NCBI GenBank assembly: GCA_902800015.1
Contig: CADCCU010000002.1
Coordinates: 1-64,000 of the forward strand
Direction: 5' to 3'
Length of the DNA stretch: 64,000 nucleotides
DNA from: an uncultured Ureaplasma sp.
GTDB taxonomy: Bacteria > Bacillota_I > Bacilli_A > Mycoplasmatales > Mycoplasmoidaceae
Below, in pieces: positions 40,995-52,026 of this stretch. Below the pieces are notes generated by a model. That model worked only from the letters and a program-made list of their open reading frames with translations, was not told the DNA's origin and did no database searches. The position numbers were made by a program, and so were the translations under genes. Every line of letters starts with the position of its first letter. Position 1 is the stretch's first letter.

Positions 40995-41330
40995 ATGAAA
41001 AAAATTGAAATTAATGATGAAGTTTATGAGAAATTAGAAAAAGCTTATGCTGATTTTAGAAAAAATCAGGATAAGATACCACCAGCTATTTATAAAAAGT
41101 ATGGTGATAGTTTTGATAGTTTTGTACAACAAATATTATCTGACTATATAGATAATCTACAAAAATCAGTTGAATTTAGCAAATCTTTTGGTGATATGTT
41201 TAAAGGTTTAGATATGTCTAAACTAAAAGAAGAATTATCTTCTTTATCATCACTTTTCTCTGGTGAAAAACAAAAGGAAGAAGACAAAGAAGAAGAGAAA
41301 AGTAGTGATCCTAGCAAGACTAAGAATTAA
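40995..41330 (+). CDS. Small charged protein of unknown function
   Basis: A 111-residue soluble protein. The N-terminal MKKIEINDEVYEKLEKAYAD and the region FDSFVQQILSDYIDN suggest amphipathic helices, and the C-terminus is a run of Glu, Lys and Ser (KEEDKEEEKSS). The N-terminal IEINDEVYEKLEK pattern resembles the start of small ribbon-helix-helix or antitoxin-like proteins, but no partner toxin is adjacent. It converges with hsdR; the two stop codons overlap by 4 bases. Function not assigned. Confidence 0.6.
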   Translation: MKKIEINDEVYEKLEKAYADFRKNQDKIPPAIYKKYGDSFDSFVQQILSDYIDNLQKSVEFSKSFGDMFKGLDMSKLKEELSSLSSLFSGEKQKEEDKEEEKSSDPSKTKN

Positions 41331-44300
41331 ATACCAAGATATTTTTCAAAGTATTCTTTTAATCTTTTTATAACTTTTTGTCGTGTTTCATAATGTTTAT
41401 TACCACTTTTAAATATTGAAATAGGTGGTAAGATATTCTCAATATGCATACCAGTAGTTTTTAATTCACCATCTTTAAATGAATCATCAATATATTTAAT
41501 TGTTTTGTCTTTATTCAATCTATATTGATTAATGATTTCTAACAACTCATTATATTTACTTTTCGATGTATAGTCCTCTCATGCATTAAAAATATTATCT
41601 GTTTTATTTACAGTTGCAACGAAATTCTCAATAAGTTCTTTTTTACTACGTAATTCAAGACTTGAATCAATAGCTCTGCTTATTTTTAATTCTATTGTTT
41701 CATCTTTTGCGTTATTTTTATGATGAACGCTAACCATTTGTAGAATGGTATCAACACCTACTTCTTCTTGTTTTAATGATTCAATCTCAAAAACAAGATC
41801 ATCATTTATATCAACAGCTTCACCTTCATGCTTTTTTCTTCATTTGTCATAATACTTTAAATATATACTTTGATAATCTTGAAGATCTCTTGCTGATAAA
41901 ATATCATTTTCCTTAAATTCATCAAATGTGAATAGAATAGTTCTTGCTCTAAGTATTGAACTAAATAGATTTACAAAATCCTTTTCTGCTTGTTCTCCTG
42001 ATTTTCATTTATTAAGTGATGATAATGGGTATTCACTCTTAATCTGCTCAACTAAATCTTTATAGCCAAGTATTTGTTTGCCATTAGAATCTATATAACC
42101 AAAGAAATATTCTTTGAAACTTTTTAACACACATATACCCATTGCATTTTTATCACCAAACATTGCAACAGATTCTTCTACTTGTTTTTGTAGCGACCTA
42201 AAGCAAATAATATTACCATATTTTTTTATAGAGTTTAATATTCTATTAGTTCTTGAAAATGCTTGAATAAGTCCATGGTCTCTTAAATTTTTATCAACTC
42301 ATAATGTGTTTAATGTTGTTGCATCAAATCCAGTTAAAAACATATTTACAACAATTAAAATATCTATCTCTCTGTTTTTCATTCTGTATGAAACATCTCG
42401 ATAGTAGTTTTGGAATTTATCACTAGATGTATCAAAGTTAGTTTGGAAAATGTTGTTGTAGTCTTGGATAGCAGCTTCTAAAAAATCTCTTGATGCTTTA
42501 TCTAAGTTTAATGTACTTTCTGAATTTTCTTCTTCAATAATACCATCAACGCCTTCTTCATTTGGAGAATAACTGAAGATGGTTGCTATATTAAGCTTCT
42601 TTAATGGATCAACTTCCATTTGTTTTTTAAATTCTAAATAATATTGTTTAGCGGCATCTATTGATCAAACACAAAATATGGAATTAAAGCCGTTTAATGT
42701 TTTTGATGTATATATTGGTTTAATTTTGTTATTTCTTGCGGAAACAACTTTATTTATATTATCAATTGCATTGTATGAATAAACTTCTTTACCATATGTT
42801 TTTTCTCTGAAGTTATCTAAAATATATTTAACATTATTGCTAATTCTTCTTGGGTCGGATCAAACTTTTTCACGATCAATATCAGACACTTTTTTATCTT
42901 TGATATTTGATTTCATATCAAATGTTTTTAGATATTGAATCTTAAAAGGCAAAACATTGTGATCTTGTATAGCATTAACAATATTGTATGTATGTAATTC
43001 ATCACCAAAGATTTGCTTTGTAGTTTTTAAAATATTTGTGCTATTTTGATTTTTATTTCTGTTCCCTATAGGTGTTCCAGTAAAACCAAACAAGTGATAC
43101 TTTTTAAAGTTTTTAATAATTGCTTTATGCATATCACCAAATTGACTTCTGTGACATTCATCAAAAATTATTACAACATGTTTATTAAAAATAGGATGAG
43201 TTGTATATTTTTTAATAAAACGATCTAGTTTTTGAATTGTTGTAACAATTAATTTCTTATTTTCACTAGAACTATCTAATTGTTGCTTTAATATTCTTGT
43301 TGATGTGTTGCTATTTGCAGCATCTTTTTGGAATTTATCATATTCACACATTGTTTGATAGTCTAAATCTTTTCGATCAACAACAAATATGACTTTATCA
43401 ATGTAATTAAATTTAATAGCTAATTGGGAAACTTTAAATGAAGTTAATGTTTTACCACTACCAGTTGTATGCCAAATATATCCACCAGCCTTAATACTTC
43501 CATATGTTTTATAATTATTTGATATTTCAATACGATTAATAATTCTTTCTGTAGCTGCTATTTGGTATGGGCGCATAACAAGCAATAAATTATTAACTGT
43601 GAAAACACAATATTTAGTTAAAATGTTTAATATTGTATGTTTTGCAAAGAATGTCTTTGTAAAATCAACTAAATCATAAATAACATTATTATTTGCATCT
43701 GTTCAATACGAAGTAAATTCAAAACTATTTGATGTTGATGTTTTTCTATTATTAATATTATTGTTAGATTCTTTTATATGATTGTTTCTTGTAGTATTTG
43801 AATAATATTTAGTTTCAGTTCCATTAGAAATTACAAAAATTTGAATATATTTGAATAGTCCTTTTGAAGCTCAAAAACTATCTCTTTGATATCTTTTAAT
43901 TTGATTAAATGCTTCTTGTAAACTAACTCCTCTTCTTTTTAGCTCAATATGAACTAAAGGAAGACCATTGACTAAAACAGTTACATCATATCTATTTTTG
44001 TATTTACCTTCATTTTCAACATATTGATTTATAACTTGTAACTTATTGTTGTGAATACAACTTTTATCAATAAGTTTGATATTTTTTGTTTGACCATCAT
44101 CACATTTTAATAGTTGAACATAATCTTCTTGAATTTTTCTTGTTTTATCAGCGATTTCTTCATCTTTTCCAACAATATTATTGTTAAAAAATCAATCTCA
44201 TTCATCATCAGAAAATTTATATTTATTTAGTTCTTCTAGTTTAATTCTAAGATTTTTTATAAGATCGTTTTCATTATGAATTGGTAAATATTCATAACAT

Positions 44301-44437
44301 TGAGATTGAAGGATATTTATAAATTCTTGTTCAAGATCATGTTCACTTTGGTATGAATCTGATCTTTTACCTTTTGATTTATAATCAGTAACAACTGTTG
44401 AATCTTCTGATCTTAAAATAATATCGTAGTAGCTCAT
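41327..44437 (-). CDS. hsdR: Type I restriction endonuclease subunit R
   Basis: Motor and nuclease subunit, 1036 residues, that translocates DNA and cuts unmodified DNA when bound to HsdM2S. The nuclease motif is at [17 protein letters not shown] (ExK). The helicase has Walker [13 protein letters not shown], the DECH box [14 protein letters not shown] and [29 protein letters not shown] is the conserved motif VI region. The frame is continuous through many TGA-Trp codons with no true stop. The ATG overlaps the hsdS stop (TAATG). The product depends on HsdM for target recognition, and hsdM is out of frame in this sequence. Confidence 0.93.
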
Positions 44438-46233
44438 TATTTCTCCTTATATTCACTAAATGTTAAGAGTTTATCTCTATAGTATTGATATTGTTTTTTT
44501 CTTGCTTCGATTTCAGCAGGTAGACCATTTACTAAATCATTACAGTATGAATCAAAATTATTTAAGATATTAACAATTTTCTCTTGAACTGGTAATGGTG
44601 GTAAAGAAATAGAATATTCTTTTTTAATAACAGATGGGTGTGCTTTTTTTGTGTAGTTAAATTCTTTTGATGATCATTGATTCTCAAGTGTATAAAATAG
44701 ATATTTTGTGAATAATAATTTATTATTTAAATTTTTTATTCAACCACAAACATTTGTAACAGAATATTTCAAATTATTCCTATAGAAAAATTTACCACCA
44801 CCATCTATGCTTCATGTGATTCGTTCATCATCGAACATATATTTACCATATCGACCAATTTCACCATTATTTGTTGCAGAACTTGAATAAACGGGAAAAT
44901 TTCCAGGAGTTTCACGAATATCGTTCTTACTTATAACATTACCTCGACCCATACAAATTATTTGCATTTCATCTAAGTCATAAAGTTGAACATTTGCATA
45001 ACCAAATACATACTGTAGCATTTTAATTAGACCTTCCGCTCTCTCTCTCTCTCTCTCGATGCCAGCTGCAGAATTAATAGTTACATTTAGATCAAATGAC
45101 AATAACTTATCTCTGTAGTATTCATATTGTTTTTTACGTGCTTCAATTTCAGCAGGTAGACCAATTTGTAAGTCAGAACAATTTTTTTCAAAATTATCTA
45201 ATACATTAACAATTTTTTCTTGGATTGATAATGGAGGGATGGGAATTTGGATTGAAAATAATCTATTCATATCAATTCCTGGCACAGCACCTTTTTTAAA
45301 TGACTTAATTTTTTCTTCTTGTAGTTTTAAACAATGAAATACATATTTTTGAGAAAGATTTTTAATTGGTAATAAAGCATAACGAGAATCAACAATTCAT
45401 GCATTTTCATTTATAAAATCAATATATCCTACACTTCCTGCAACATTTATTGTTACTGTTTGTGGATGAATATTAAATTTGTTATATTTTCCAAATGGTA
45501 ATGTTGATCCCCCACCATAAACATTATATTGACCATTGTCAATTAAATCACGTTTACAAATTCGTATTCCTCTAAATATTTTATCCTTTGGGTATATTTC
45601 ACTTAATTTTTTATATTCCACTTTATTATCAAAAGTTAGCATATAATTTCGATAATATTCATATTGTTTCTTTCTATTGGTTAGCTCAGTGGTTAGCTCA
45701 GTGGTTAGCTCAGTAAATGAATCTAATATATTAACAATTTTTTCTTGGATTGATAATGGAGGAACGGGGATTTTAAATTTCTTTAAACTTTGCAAATTTA
45801 TGCTTGTCAATGGTCCTTGAGCCATTCCTTTAATCACAAGATATTTATTACTAATGTAATAAAATAAAAACTTATAATTTAGTTTTTTACCAACTTCTAA
45901 TGCACATACTGATTGATTTGCAGTTAACTTAATTTCATTAATTCCACACCGTGCAACAGTTGCACCAGTCATCGCTACTAAAACCGATTTTTCTTTAATT
46001 CATTTTGTAGATGACTCCTTTAAACCTAAATCAGTTATCATAATTTGTGTATTCGTAATGTTGTTAAAGTTTATTTCACCAGATCTAAGTCATGGAATAT
46101 TGCCTCCATAGTAATCTTTTCTGGTTGTTTTTGGTGTTCCTCCTGAAAAAATTTTTATACACACCTGATCAAGACTTCTATATTCAACACCATTAGGACA
46201 CAATTCTTTTATTAACTCATCAAGCTTATTCAT
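44437..46233 (-). CDS. hsdS: Type I specificity subunit with three target-recognition domains
   Basis: The 598-residue frame encodes three TRD-plus-conserved-region units; ordinary HsdS has two in about 400 residues. The conserved region PPLSIQEKIVN-LD recurs near residues 158 and 331 and as PPLPVQEKIVNIL near 548, each followed by a RKKQYEYYR helix. Three TELT repeats of 12 bp lie in the first central region (45679-45714). A (GA)9G tract at 45039-45057 encodes ERERER at residues about 393-398, just after the second unit. In either other frame the tract runs into a stop within five codons, leaving a standard two-TRD protein of about 400 residues. The gene lies between hsdM and hsdR with TAATG overlaps. 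Confidence 0.9.
45039..45057 (-). repeat. (GA)9 dinucleotide tract in hsdS
   Basis: Nine GA repeats plus one G read on the minus strand inside the hsdS frame. Uneven dinucleotide tracts of this kind mutate by polymerase slippage, and here slippage changes the reading frame. Confidence 0.95.
45679..45714 (-). repeat. Three 12-bp repeats encoding TELT in HsdS
   Basis: Three perfect tandem 12-bp units encode TELTTELTTELT in the central conserved region between TRD1 and TRD2. The multiple of three keeps the frame, so repeat-number change alters helix length rather than truncating the protein. Confidence 0.95.
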
Positions 46234-47808
46234 TATTCTTCTATCTCCTTGATGATTTGATTGATCTTAGTTCTTAATTCATCTTCTTTTTTTACAATTT
46301 CAGTAATTTCAGAATTTAATTTTTTAATATCAATTATTTCTCTTGTATCTTCTTTTTCAACATAAGTTGAAACTGATAAATTATAGTCATTAGATGCAAT
46401 TTCTGCATTATCTACCAATTTTGTAATGTATTGAACATCTTTTCTTTCAATAAATAGCTTTAATATATCATCAATATTTTTATCTGTTAGTTTGTTATTG
46501 TTTGTTACTTTCTGATAGTATTTACTTGCATCAATAAATAATGTTGAATTTTCTTTCTTAGATTTCTTTAGAACCATGATGCATGTAGCAATAGATGTTC
46601 CAAAGAACAAGTTAGAAGGCAATTGAATGATGCAATCAATAAAATTACTATTTACTAAATACTTTCTTATTTTTTGTTCAGCTCCACCACGATATAGAAT
46701 GCCAGGGAAGCAAACTATAGCTGCTGTACCATTTGTAGCTAATCATGATAATGAGTGCATAATAAAAGCCATATCGGCTTTTGATTTTGGTGCTAAAACA
46801 CCAGCAGGTGAAAATCTTTGATCATTAATTAAATAAGATATTGAATCACCTTCTCATTTAGTTGAATATGGTGGATTACTTACTATTACTTCAAATGGCT
46901 CATCATCTCAATGAAGAGGATTAATTAATGTATCACCATTGGCAATATTAAACTGATCAAATTCAATATCATGAAGAAACATATTAATTCTGCATAGGTT
47001 ATATGTAGTCAAATTAATTTCTTGACCATAGAAACCATTTCTTACTTTCCTTTTTCCTAGAATCTTTGCAAATTTTAAAAGTAAAGATCCAGAACCACAT
47101 GCTGGATCATATACTTTGTTAATCTCTTTTTTGTCAGTTATTGTCAATTTAGCTAAAAGTTCAGAAACTTCTTGAGGTGTATAGAATTCCCCCCCCCGAT
47201 TTACCAGCATCAGATGCATACATACCCATTAAAAATTCATATGCATCACCAAATGCATCAATAACATTTGACTTATAATCACCAAGATCCATGTCACCAA
47301 TATTATCAATAATTTTTACAAGTTTTTTATTTCTTTCAGCAACTGTGCTTCCTAACTTATTACTGTTTACATCTAAATCATCAAATAAGCCTTTTAAATT
47401 ATTTTCACTCGCTCTGCCTTTTGATGATTGTTCAATTGCATTAAATATATTCTCAAGTGTTTCATTTAGATTTTCATCATTTTTAGTATTTTTCCGAACA
47501 TTACAAAATAATTGACTTGGGAAAATAAAAAAACCTTTAGCATTAGCAATTGATTCTATTTCTTCTTTAGGAATAGATTTTACTTCTTCATCAGTTAATT
47601 TTGCATAATCACAATTTTTATTACCTGATTCTTGCTCCTTTTTATTTATTCAGTTTGTAAAATTTTCAGAAATATACCTGTAAAATAAAAAACCTAAAAC
47701 ATATTGTTTAAAATCTCAACCATCCACTGATCCTCTTAGGTCATTAGCAATTTTTCATATAGTTTTATGTAGTTCTTCTCTTTCTTTTTCTTTTCTGTTA
47801 TCAGTCAT
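46233..47808 (-). pseudogene. hsdM: Type I DNA methyltransferase subunit M, out of frame at a G9 tract
   Basis: HsdM supplies the adenine methyltransferase. The N-terminal part (47808 down to the tract) reads in one frame to [21 protein letters not shown]. The remainder continues in another frame as [17 protein letters not shown], with [13 protein letters not shown] (SAM motif) and NPPYSTKWEGD (catalytic motif). The frames are joined at a run of nine G (47189-47197). Eight G would restore a 524-residue HsdM; as given, translation stops at 47149 after about 219 residues. I list it as a pseudogene only because this copy is OFF; the homopolymer makes it likely to be reversible. A sequencing error in the tract is the main alternative. 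Confidence 0.88.
47189..47197 (-). repeat. G9 homopolymer in hsdM
   Basis: Nine consecutive C on the plus strand (G on the coding strand) in an AT-rich genome, placed at the GKSGGEF motif of HsdM. It is the longest G/C homopolymer I noticed in the window. Confidence 0.95.
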
Positions 47809-50109: not shown

Positions 50110-52026
50110 TTAAAATCCTGCTTTTGTTCAGCCACTAGGTAGTTGGAAATCTTGTGGATTTTGACTACCGTTGTAGTAGAATATACCAGAACTAGCAACA
50201 CCAGATACTCAAGAATTAAAACATCTAGTATTATAGTTGCCTATGTAACCAATTTTAATTGAATTTAATGAAGCACAGCCTTTAAACATGTAAACATAAC
50301 AATAGTCTACCAAAGTTGTTGCAGGTAACTCAGGCGCAACAGTTAAAGATGAACAACCATAAAACATATAGTAATAACATCCATCTGCTAAAGTTGTAGC
50401 TGGTAAATCAGGTGGAATAACTAAAGAAGTGCAATTTCAAAACATAGATCTATAACAATCTTCTGCTAAATTTGTTGCAGGTAAATCAGGCGCAACAGTT
50501 AAAGATGAACAACCATAAAACATATTACCATAACAATCATATTTTAAATTTGTTGCAGGTAAGAAATTTTCACTAACACTTGTTATGCCAGTTGAATTCC
50601 CAAATAAATTATAAAAACAATAATTGCATGGGATGTCAGTGATATCGCCTGATTCTTCGGTTTGTGCACCATTATCCAATAGTCCCATAATGTTACCAGA
50701 AAGAGAAACATCACCTCTAATAGATAGACATGAATAATTTGTATTTGATGTTGATCAACCATCAGGATTATTACCTTTTAGGTATAATGTTGAATTTTGA
50801 AGAATATTTAATGTTGAGCCATATGTTCGTCAGTTAATACCATCTGTTGAGTATTTTAAATTAGGATTGCTTGAACCTTTATTGATTAATTCAAAAGTTG
50901 AGTTTTCATTAGCAATAATAGTTACATAAGATCGTGAATGAACTTTTCAGCCACTAGGTAGTTGGAAATCTTGTGCAGTTTGACTACCATCGTAATAGAA
51001 TGTACCGGAATTAGCTACACCTGATACTCAAGAATTAAAATATGTAGAATCATAGTTGCCTATGTAACCAATTTTAATTGAATTTAATGATGAACAACCA
51101 TCAAATATTCGTCCATAACAACTACTTACTAAACTTGTCGCAGGCAACTCAGGTGCAGTGGTTAAAGCTGTACAATTATTAAACATACCATAATAACAAT
51201 TTTCTGCTAAAGTTGTTGCTGGTAGCAACTCAGGTGCAGTAGTTAATGAAGTACAGTTCTGAAACATTCAATCATAACAATTATTTGCCAAACTTGTTGC
51301 AGGCAAGTTAGGTGCAGTGGTTAAAGCTGTACAATTTTTAAACATTGTTCGATAACATTTTTCTGCTAAACTTGTCGCAGGCAACTCAGGTGCAACAGTT
51401 AAAGATGTGCAGCCATTAAACATATGTTGATAACAACTAGCTGCTAAACTTCTTGAAGATAATTTAGGTGCATTAGTTAATGATGTGCATTGATAAAACA
51501 TACCATCATAACAATCTTGTTTTAAATTTGTAGCAGGTAAGAAATCTTCACTAACACTTGTTATTCCAGTTGAGTTTCTAAATAGATCATAAAAACAATA
51601 ATCACATGGAATATCAGTGATATCACCTATTTCTCCTAATGTTGCTCCATTATCCAATAATGCCATAACATCTCCTGAGATAGATACATCACCAGTAATA
51701 GATAAATATGAATAATTTGTATTTGATGTTGACCAACCATCAGGATTATTACCTTTTAGGTATAATGTTTGACCTTGGTTAATATTTAATTCTGAGCTAT
51801 ATGTAGATCAACTTTTACAATCAGTTGAATATTGTAAATTTGGATTGTTGCCACCAGAATTATCTAAAACTAATGCTGAGTCAGCATTAGCAGTAAGAAT
51901 AACACATTGATATTGTTTATTATCATTTTCTGAACCACAACTTGTTGACACAGCAGCAATTGTGCCAATTGATGTAATTCCTAATGTAGGAATTAATATT
52001 GATTTTAATAATTTTGTTTTGTTCAT
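50110..52026 (-). CDS. BspA-like leucine-rich-repeat (DUF285) lipoprotein
   Basis: A 638-residue surface lipoprotein. The signal peptide MNKTKLLKSILIPTLGI ends in a lipobox AAVSTSC. The mature protein consists of two tandem copies of one architecture. Each has a beta-rich segment (YLKGNNPDGWSTSNTNYS), then a stack of 26-residue LRRs of the form CYxxMFxxCxSLTxAPxLPATxLA, then a closing IKIGYIGNY...FNSWVSGV segment. I count about five to six repeats in the first copy and four in the second. BspA-type LRRs mediate attachment to host or protozoan surfaces in other organisms. Seven or more TGA codons are Trp. It is monocistronic with its own terminator. Confidence 0.9.

Follow-up and report, generated by a model that had tools for sequence, protein, structure and literature searches.

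Gene organization of the locus

The window, that is, the whole stretch of 64,000 nucleotides analysed here, was translated with genetic code 4 (TGA read as W). Its minus strand carries hsdM (47808..46233), hsdS and hsdR in this order as one operon, both gene joints being TAATG overlaps (Table 1). HsdM, HsdS and HsdR are encoded together, with matches to TIGR00497 (both hsdM pieces above the cut-off), Methylase_S, TIGR00348 and EcoR124_C, and the 404-aa HsdS of EcoR124 is the best solved relative of the HsdS found here (phmmer 6e-38). Judged by these similarities, the system is a type I restriction-modification hsdM-hsdS-hsdR operon of the EcoR124 (type IC) kind. It departs from the two target-recognition domains (TRDs) of that kind, since the assembled hsdS frame holds three units and the alternative frames hold two. 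The initial annotation had described a third TRD and conserved region fused onto a two-TRD HsdS, and the 598-aa frame with its three Methylase_S stretches bears this out. Units 2 and 3 resemble each other mainly in the conserved coil, so that TRD2 and TRD3 are not duplicates; all three TRDs differ.

The TTEL repeats of the coil between units 1 and 2 form a tandem four-residue repeat, and their alignment with the TAEL stretch in HsdS of EcoR124 has no gaps. The repeat-bearing coil is 13 aa long here and 13 or 17 aa long in most relatives with such repeats, which corresponds to one repeat more or less. EcoR124I and EcoR124II are one coil repeat apart and hence differ in half-site spacing; the 12-bp repeat of the window hsdS could alter this spacing as well. 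EcoR124I and EcoR124II thus share with the window system the HsdM/HsdS/HsdR family and a 12-bp repeat coding for a four-residue turn in the central coil, whereas they have two TRDs and no tract that switches domain number.

Table 1. Features of the hsd operon, with positions in the window
Feature	Position	Strand	Remarks
hsdM 5' part	47149..47808	-	219-aa ORF; HsdM_N; TIGR00497 positions 1-202
hsdM G9 tract	47189..47197	-	at KSGGEFYTP site; breaks hsdM frame
hsdM 3' part	46233..47219	-	328-aa ORF; N6_Mtase; TIGR00497 positions 198-515
hsdS	44437..46233	-	598 aa (code 4), three TRD units; Pfam Methylase_S in three stretches, total 232 bits
hsdS unit 1	45628..46233	-	TRD1 and conserved coil with TTEL repeats; Methylase_S 45676-46197
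12-bp repeat	45678..45714	-	perfect, 3.1 copies, encodes TELTTELTTEL; coil between units 1 and 2
hsdS unit 2	45058..45627	-	TRD2 and conserved coil; Methylase_S 45139-45624
GA tract	45039..45057	-	19 bp, 9.5 units; unit 2/unit 3 junction; (CT)9.5 on + strand, GAGAGAGAGAGAGAGAGAG on coding strand
GGAAGG	45032..45037	-	possible Shine-Dalgarno sequence for restart of unit 3
In-frame ATG	45019..45021	-	codon 405, 17 nt past GA tract; would yield 194-aa unit 3 in split state
hsdS unit 3	44440..45038	-	linker EGLIKMLQYVFGYANV, TRD3 and conserved coil; Methylase_S 44503-44976
hsdR	41327..44437	-	1036 aa, EcoR124-type (PF12008); AAGGAG precedes its ATG

The GA tract between units 2 and 3

The GA tract starts at codon 393 and spans codons 393-399, which encode ERERER(A); it is in frame in the assembly, which corresponds to the fused state. 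A (GA)9 tract had been noted at this position, and the position is right, but the unit count should read 9.5 (19 bp). When the tract was changed computationally by -2, -1, +1 and +2 units, hsdS came to 400, 402, 402 and 404 aa, the shifted frames ending with KV or SGRSN before a stop that lies 2-6 codons past the tract; with +3 units (12.5) the computed product is 600 aa and again fused. The earlier estimate of about 400 residues with a stop within five codons was therefore essentially right. As read from the frames, tract length sets how many TRD units share one frame. When the window was shuffled 100 times with dinucleotides preserved, a tract like GA9.5 appeared in none of the shuffles, and no other (GA)≥6 tract is present in the 568-kb assembly. 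The uniqueness of the hsdS tract in this assembly should not be over-read, because many congeners hold numerous GA tracts.

A unit 3 that is a separate gene with its own start and ribosome binding site had been named as the finding that would speak against a fusion. Such an ATG does exist behind GGAAGG, and both alternative frames stop 1-5 nt before it, while the fusion also stands in the assembled frame; "separate gene" and "fusion" can both hold, one per tract length. Most hsdS genes of the genus that bear a tract, and that of G052, a relative from another genus, have an in-frame ATG 7-23 nt past it. In G031 the nearest one is 63 nt past the tract, and none was found soon after the tract in G084, G085 and G038. 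The chance of such ATGs, estimated from methionine frequency, is ~1e-8 if 10 of 11 loci are taken as independent, a value that makes the result look more significant than it is, as G013 was judged by eye and three loci share ancestry. Restart of unit 3 at its own ATG is thus plausible here, and not universal, because the ATG is missing from G084, G085 and G038. It is known that separate HsdS halves reconstitute type IC activity and that type IC truncations form half-subunit dimers. The split state may produce a two-TRD HsdS together with a separate one-TRD half-subunit, and not just a truncated protein. That hsdR might no longer be translated when the gene is split, by polarity through the TAATG overlap, was considered and is not claimed because hsdR carries its own AAGGAG site.

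A second tract in hsdM

The hsdM gene splits into its two frames exactly at the G9 tract, and both pieces together span TIGR00497 end to end. A G8 tract would restore the frame and the KSGGEFYTP motif. G9 is the only G run of seven or more in the assembly, and no tract of this type appeared in shuffles of the window; both of the assembly's unique tracts (GA9.5 and G9) sit in the hsd operon. At the corresponding Gly-Gly position, the G runs are 2-5 long in 79 sites from distant taxa, whereas within the family 7 of the 16 sites have 7-9 G, four of these seven being out of frame. Because long G runs recur at this site in the family, hsdM is very probably phase-variable. With G9, HsdM is not intact in this assembly, and it is intact in relatives. 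Since hsdM is out of frame, the assembled genotype reads as OFF for the whole system, and an active enzyme is probably not produced. The G9 length may still stem from an error of assembly. Neither this tract nor the 12-bp coil repeat nor the ATG after the GA tract was present in the initial annotation. A different tract in the same gene was seen near the hsdM start of species without the hsdM G tract, namely CA10 (L029 305-324) and GA8.5 (L031 5922-5938).

Tracts between TRD units in related genomes

One assembly per species was compared, the window genome being G000, and tract-length variation is therefore seen between species and between loci. In G052, from another genus, a two-unit HsdS of 398 aa comes with a 21-bp GA tract that has TAG directly behind it, and unit 3 lies in another frame. 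The two-base offset to GAAGG is equal in both genomes, so the 21-bp tract is exactly one GA unit longer than the 19-bp tract of G000, and the gene is split after unit 2. Unit 3 of G052 is ~89% identical to that of G000. Compared as DNA, most of CR2-tract-linker-TRD3 is 83-95% identical in the two genomes, whereas the values are 38-50% for most of TRD1 and TRD2 and 69% for hsdR. This contrast shows that the CR2-tract-linker-TRD3 cassette moved between genera. Across genera, tract and linker are kept (about 83-93%) while the TRDs differ. G026 is fused, with its tract in the same phase as in G000; it has CR2-tract-linker and CR3 in common with G000 and a different TRD3. The G026 sequence starts inside its gene yet keeps the coil before TRD2, so this gene also had three units.

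In G085, one downstream unit follows G12 at one locus, where it is split, and G10 at another, where it is fused. Together with the comparison of G000 and G026 with G052, this gives tract-length differences between related alleles that change the frame. At three G084 loci, one or two further units come after a two-unit HsdS, with GA tracts at the joints, and four-unit chains occur; the joints with GA29, GA20, GA14 and GA12 are split, and one GA14 joint is fused. G030 encodes a second complete three-unit HsdS (567 aa), with a tract of the G7-G9 class between its units 1 and 2. Two-unit hsdS genes of the same genus have G7-G9 (G019, G015, G022, G012, G031) or CA8 (G013) between the units, and GA tracts occur in the hsdS of G026 and G008. 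Throughout the family, one or two additional TRD units come after a two-unit HsdS; the joints bear GA or G tracts, and the maximum is four units. The layout recurs in four genera, among which are both fused and split alleles. The relatives, showing both states of the joint, and the frame logic together support the toggle between a conventional and an extended HsdS that the initial annotation had proposed.

Several further arrangements were observed in these genomes. Four-TRD chains are found at L151 4773-7201, L153 3879-6532 and L149 6858-9404, with GA or G tracts after unit 2, and a single chain of this set can hold fused and split joints together. The three-unit hsdS at L155 6889-8761 and L156 6032-7799 are split after unit 2 in overlapping frames, with a joint that has no long tract. 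Two one-contig genomes of the same family have rows of at least 10 single-TRD hsdS ORFs around hsdM (L174 4937-16196 and L175 6487-17001).

Outside these groups, a scan of genome contigs with HsdS as query gave no match. When an alignment of HsdM was the query, mollicutes were nearly absent from the matches (one Acholeplasmataceae MAG), probably owing to patterns that read W as TGG; the 80 loci obtained were used as outgroup. In these 80 hsd loci from distant taxa, the HsdS ORFs have at most 461 aa and fewer than three coil motifs. A plasmid search gave weak matches only.

Structure models of HsdS

In the AF2 model of full-length HsdS, TRD1 and TRD3 were resolved and the pLDDT of unit 1 was mostly 58-95. 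TRD2 had almost no aligned sequences in this model, and units 2-3 were therefore modelled separately, which resolved TRD2 and TRD3 at a mean pLDDT of 82.5 (TRD2 89-97, TRD3 mostly 82-95). The linker is poorly placed in the models (pLDDT about 36-57). In Foldseek, both models matched solved HsdS structures with TM-scores by query length of 0.2-0.4, values so low that the models do not fix the mutual arrangement of the TRDs.

A probable length switch for the number of TRDs

We consider it likely that a hypermutable GA tract joins a third TRD unit to this HsdS and that tract length switches the protein between two and three TRDs. Slipped-strand mispairing would change the tract length in growing populations. 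By sequence, the three TRDs lie in a single chain of 598-600 aa at 9.5 or 12.5 units, and at other lengths translation stops behind a complete two-TRD HsdS of ~400 aa. This two-TRD HsdS would give an ordinary TRD1/TRD2 motif, while unit 3 may restart at its own ATG as a half-subunit able to pair with itself. In the fused state, pairs of TRDs might compete for the two HsdM subunits, by analogy with JHP1422 of Helicobacter pylori, and add or replace a motif. The second tract, G9 in hsdM, would turn the whole system on and off. The relatives show that the tract-linker-TRD3 block travels from genus to genus as one cassette and that further genera repeat the arrangement, with tracts of GA or G and up to four units. 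A wider reading, that HsdS chains are expandable across this mollicute family, with TRD cassettes appended after a two-TRD HsdS and a hypermutable tract at each joint setting two, three or four TRDs, has in our view slightly less than an even chance of being correct.

A possible explanation, which we hold somewhat less probable than not, is that unit 3 is always translated, either fused or as a restarted half-HsdS, so that the three TRDs stay constant and only their linkage changes. The codon-405 ATG with its GGAAGG, just beyond both alternative stops, and the similar ATGs of the genus agree with it, as does the reconstitution of type IC activity from separate halves; the lack of such an ATG in G084, G085 and G038 and its distance in G031 argue against it. 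Since most known methyltransferases switched by simple sequence repeats are published as ON/OFF, the locus might also be a plain ON/OFF one, where a single tract length gives a working HsdS and the others are dead. We find this unlikely, for the shifted frames still yield a complete two-TRD HsdS of standard length. The three-unit gene could also be a decayed or transient product of TRD recombination, a pseudogene-like relic in which the tract is a hot spot with no selected function, as the out-of-frame hsdM and the common split alleles in relatives would allow. This seems quite improbable: the three TRD units and hsdR are intact and the frames otherwise open, tract and linker are conserved across genera where the TRDs differ, and in four family loci the hsdM breaks sit on the tract itself, as phase variation would produce and random decay would not. 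That both tract lengths are errors of a draft genome in 14 contigs, homopolymers being error-prone in assemblies, and that the true gene is always split or always fused, is very improbable given that independent assemblies in several genera share the tract-at-joint layout with differing lengths.

Comparison with known systems

Type I systems are known to switch specificity when hsdS genes are inverted or shuffled, or when a single tract splits a two-TRD HsdS; in the present locus, the tract would determine how many TRDs are joined to an HsdS that is complete without them. Under the wider reading given above, slippage would be enough for one hsdS gene to supply several methylation motifs, and neither a recombinase nor an inversion would be needed. 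To our knowledge, the competition of an extra TRD for HsdM has so far been addressed with one H. pylori enzyme, and the natural series described above (two, three and four TRDs, fused and split) would let TRD competition for two HsdM subunits be tested.

Simple repeats are present in about 10% of type I systems. NgoAV of Neisseria gonorrhoeae, a type IC system with a G-tract in hsdS1/hsdS2 whose short product is itself active (PMC9577141), resembles the window hsdS in that HsdS units are joined or separated by a repeat tract lying between them and the alternative frames are truncated; in NgoAV, specificity changes too. NgoAV toggles between one and two TRDs by poly-G, whereas here the tract is GA, a complete two-TRD HsdS would gain a third TRD, and hsdM carries a further tract. 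Within the window genus, the layout of several two-unit relatives is exactly that of NgoAV. Atack et al., as cited in PMC9465063 and PMC7394358, proposed phase variation for AG[n] repeats in mycoplasma hsdS, and as far as those citations describe them, these genes share with the window hsdS a GA/AG tract within the gene.

A three-TRD HsdS had been called unusual in the initial annotation, and it is indeed rare, but it has been studied before. H. pylori JHP1422 (M.Hpy99XV) has three consecutive TRDs in one frame, as here, and methylates two motifs using different TRD pairs, TRD1+TRD3 and TRD3 alone giving different motifs (PMC3936762). In JHP1422, TRD2 equals TRD3 and variation arises by recombination, whereas in the window hsdS all three TRDs differ and the tract would control the third. 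MAGa6310 of Mycoplasma agalactiae is likewise a three-TRD HsdS in a mollicute, and arose by domain movement (PMC3077401); hsdS of M. agalactiae is reported to be without such repeats (PMC9465063), unlike the window hsdS with its GA tract. Three-TRD HsdS and tract-switched HsdS are thus each known, and their combination appears to be new. The literature searched, which did not extend to the main repeat survey of type I genes, gave no case in which a tract controls the addition of a third or fourth TRD.

Other repeats in the congeners and in the window

GA tracts of at least 16 bp lie in other genes of congeners, whose kinds were assigned by eye: apparent DNA-modification genes, namely N6 and Dam-like methyltransferase genes, several of them split at the tract, and genes whose products have a DndC-like FPVISFSGGRDSVVL motif, as well as genes that look like lipoprotein genes (L188, L207, L208, L212, L196, L199, L200, L213, L197 and L204). 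This suggests that GA tracts are a genus-wide contingency device. Elsewhere in the window, a lipoprotein-like protein (50110-52026, minus strand) has 78-bp tandem repeats (LPATxLAxxCYxxMFxGCxSL) and resembles BspA-like/DUF285 mycoplasma surface proteins.
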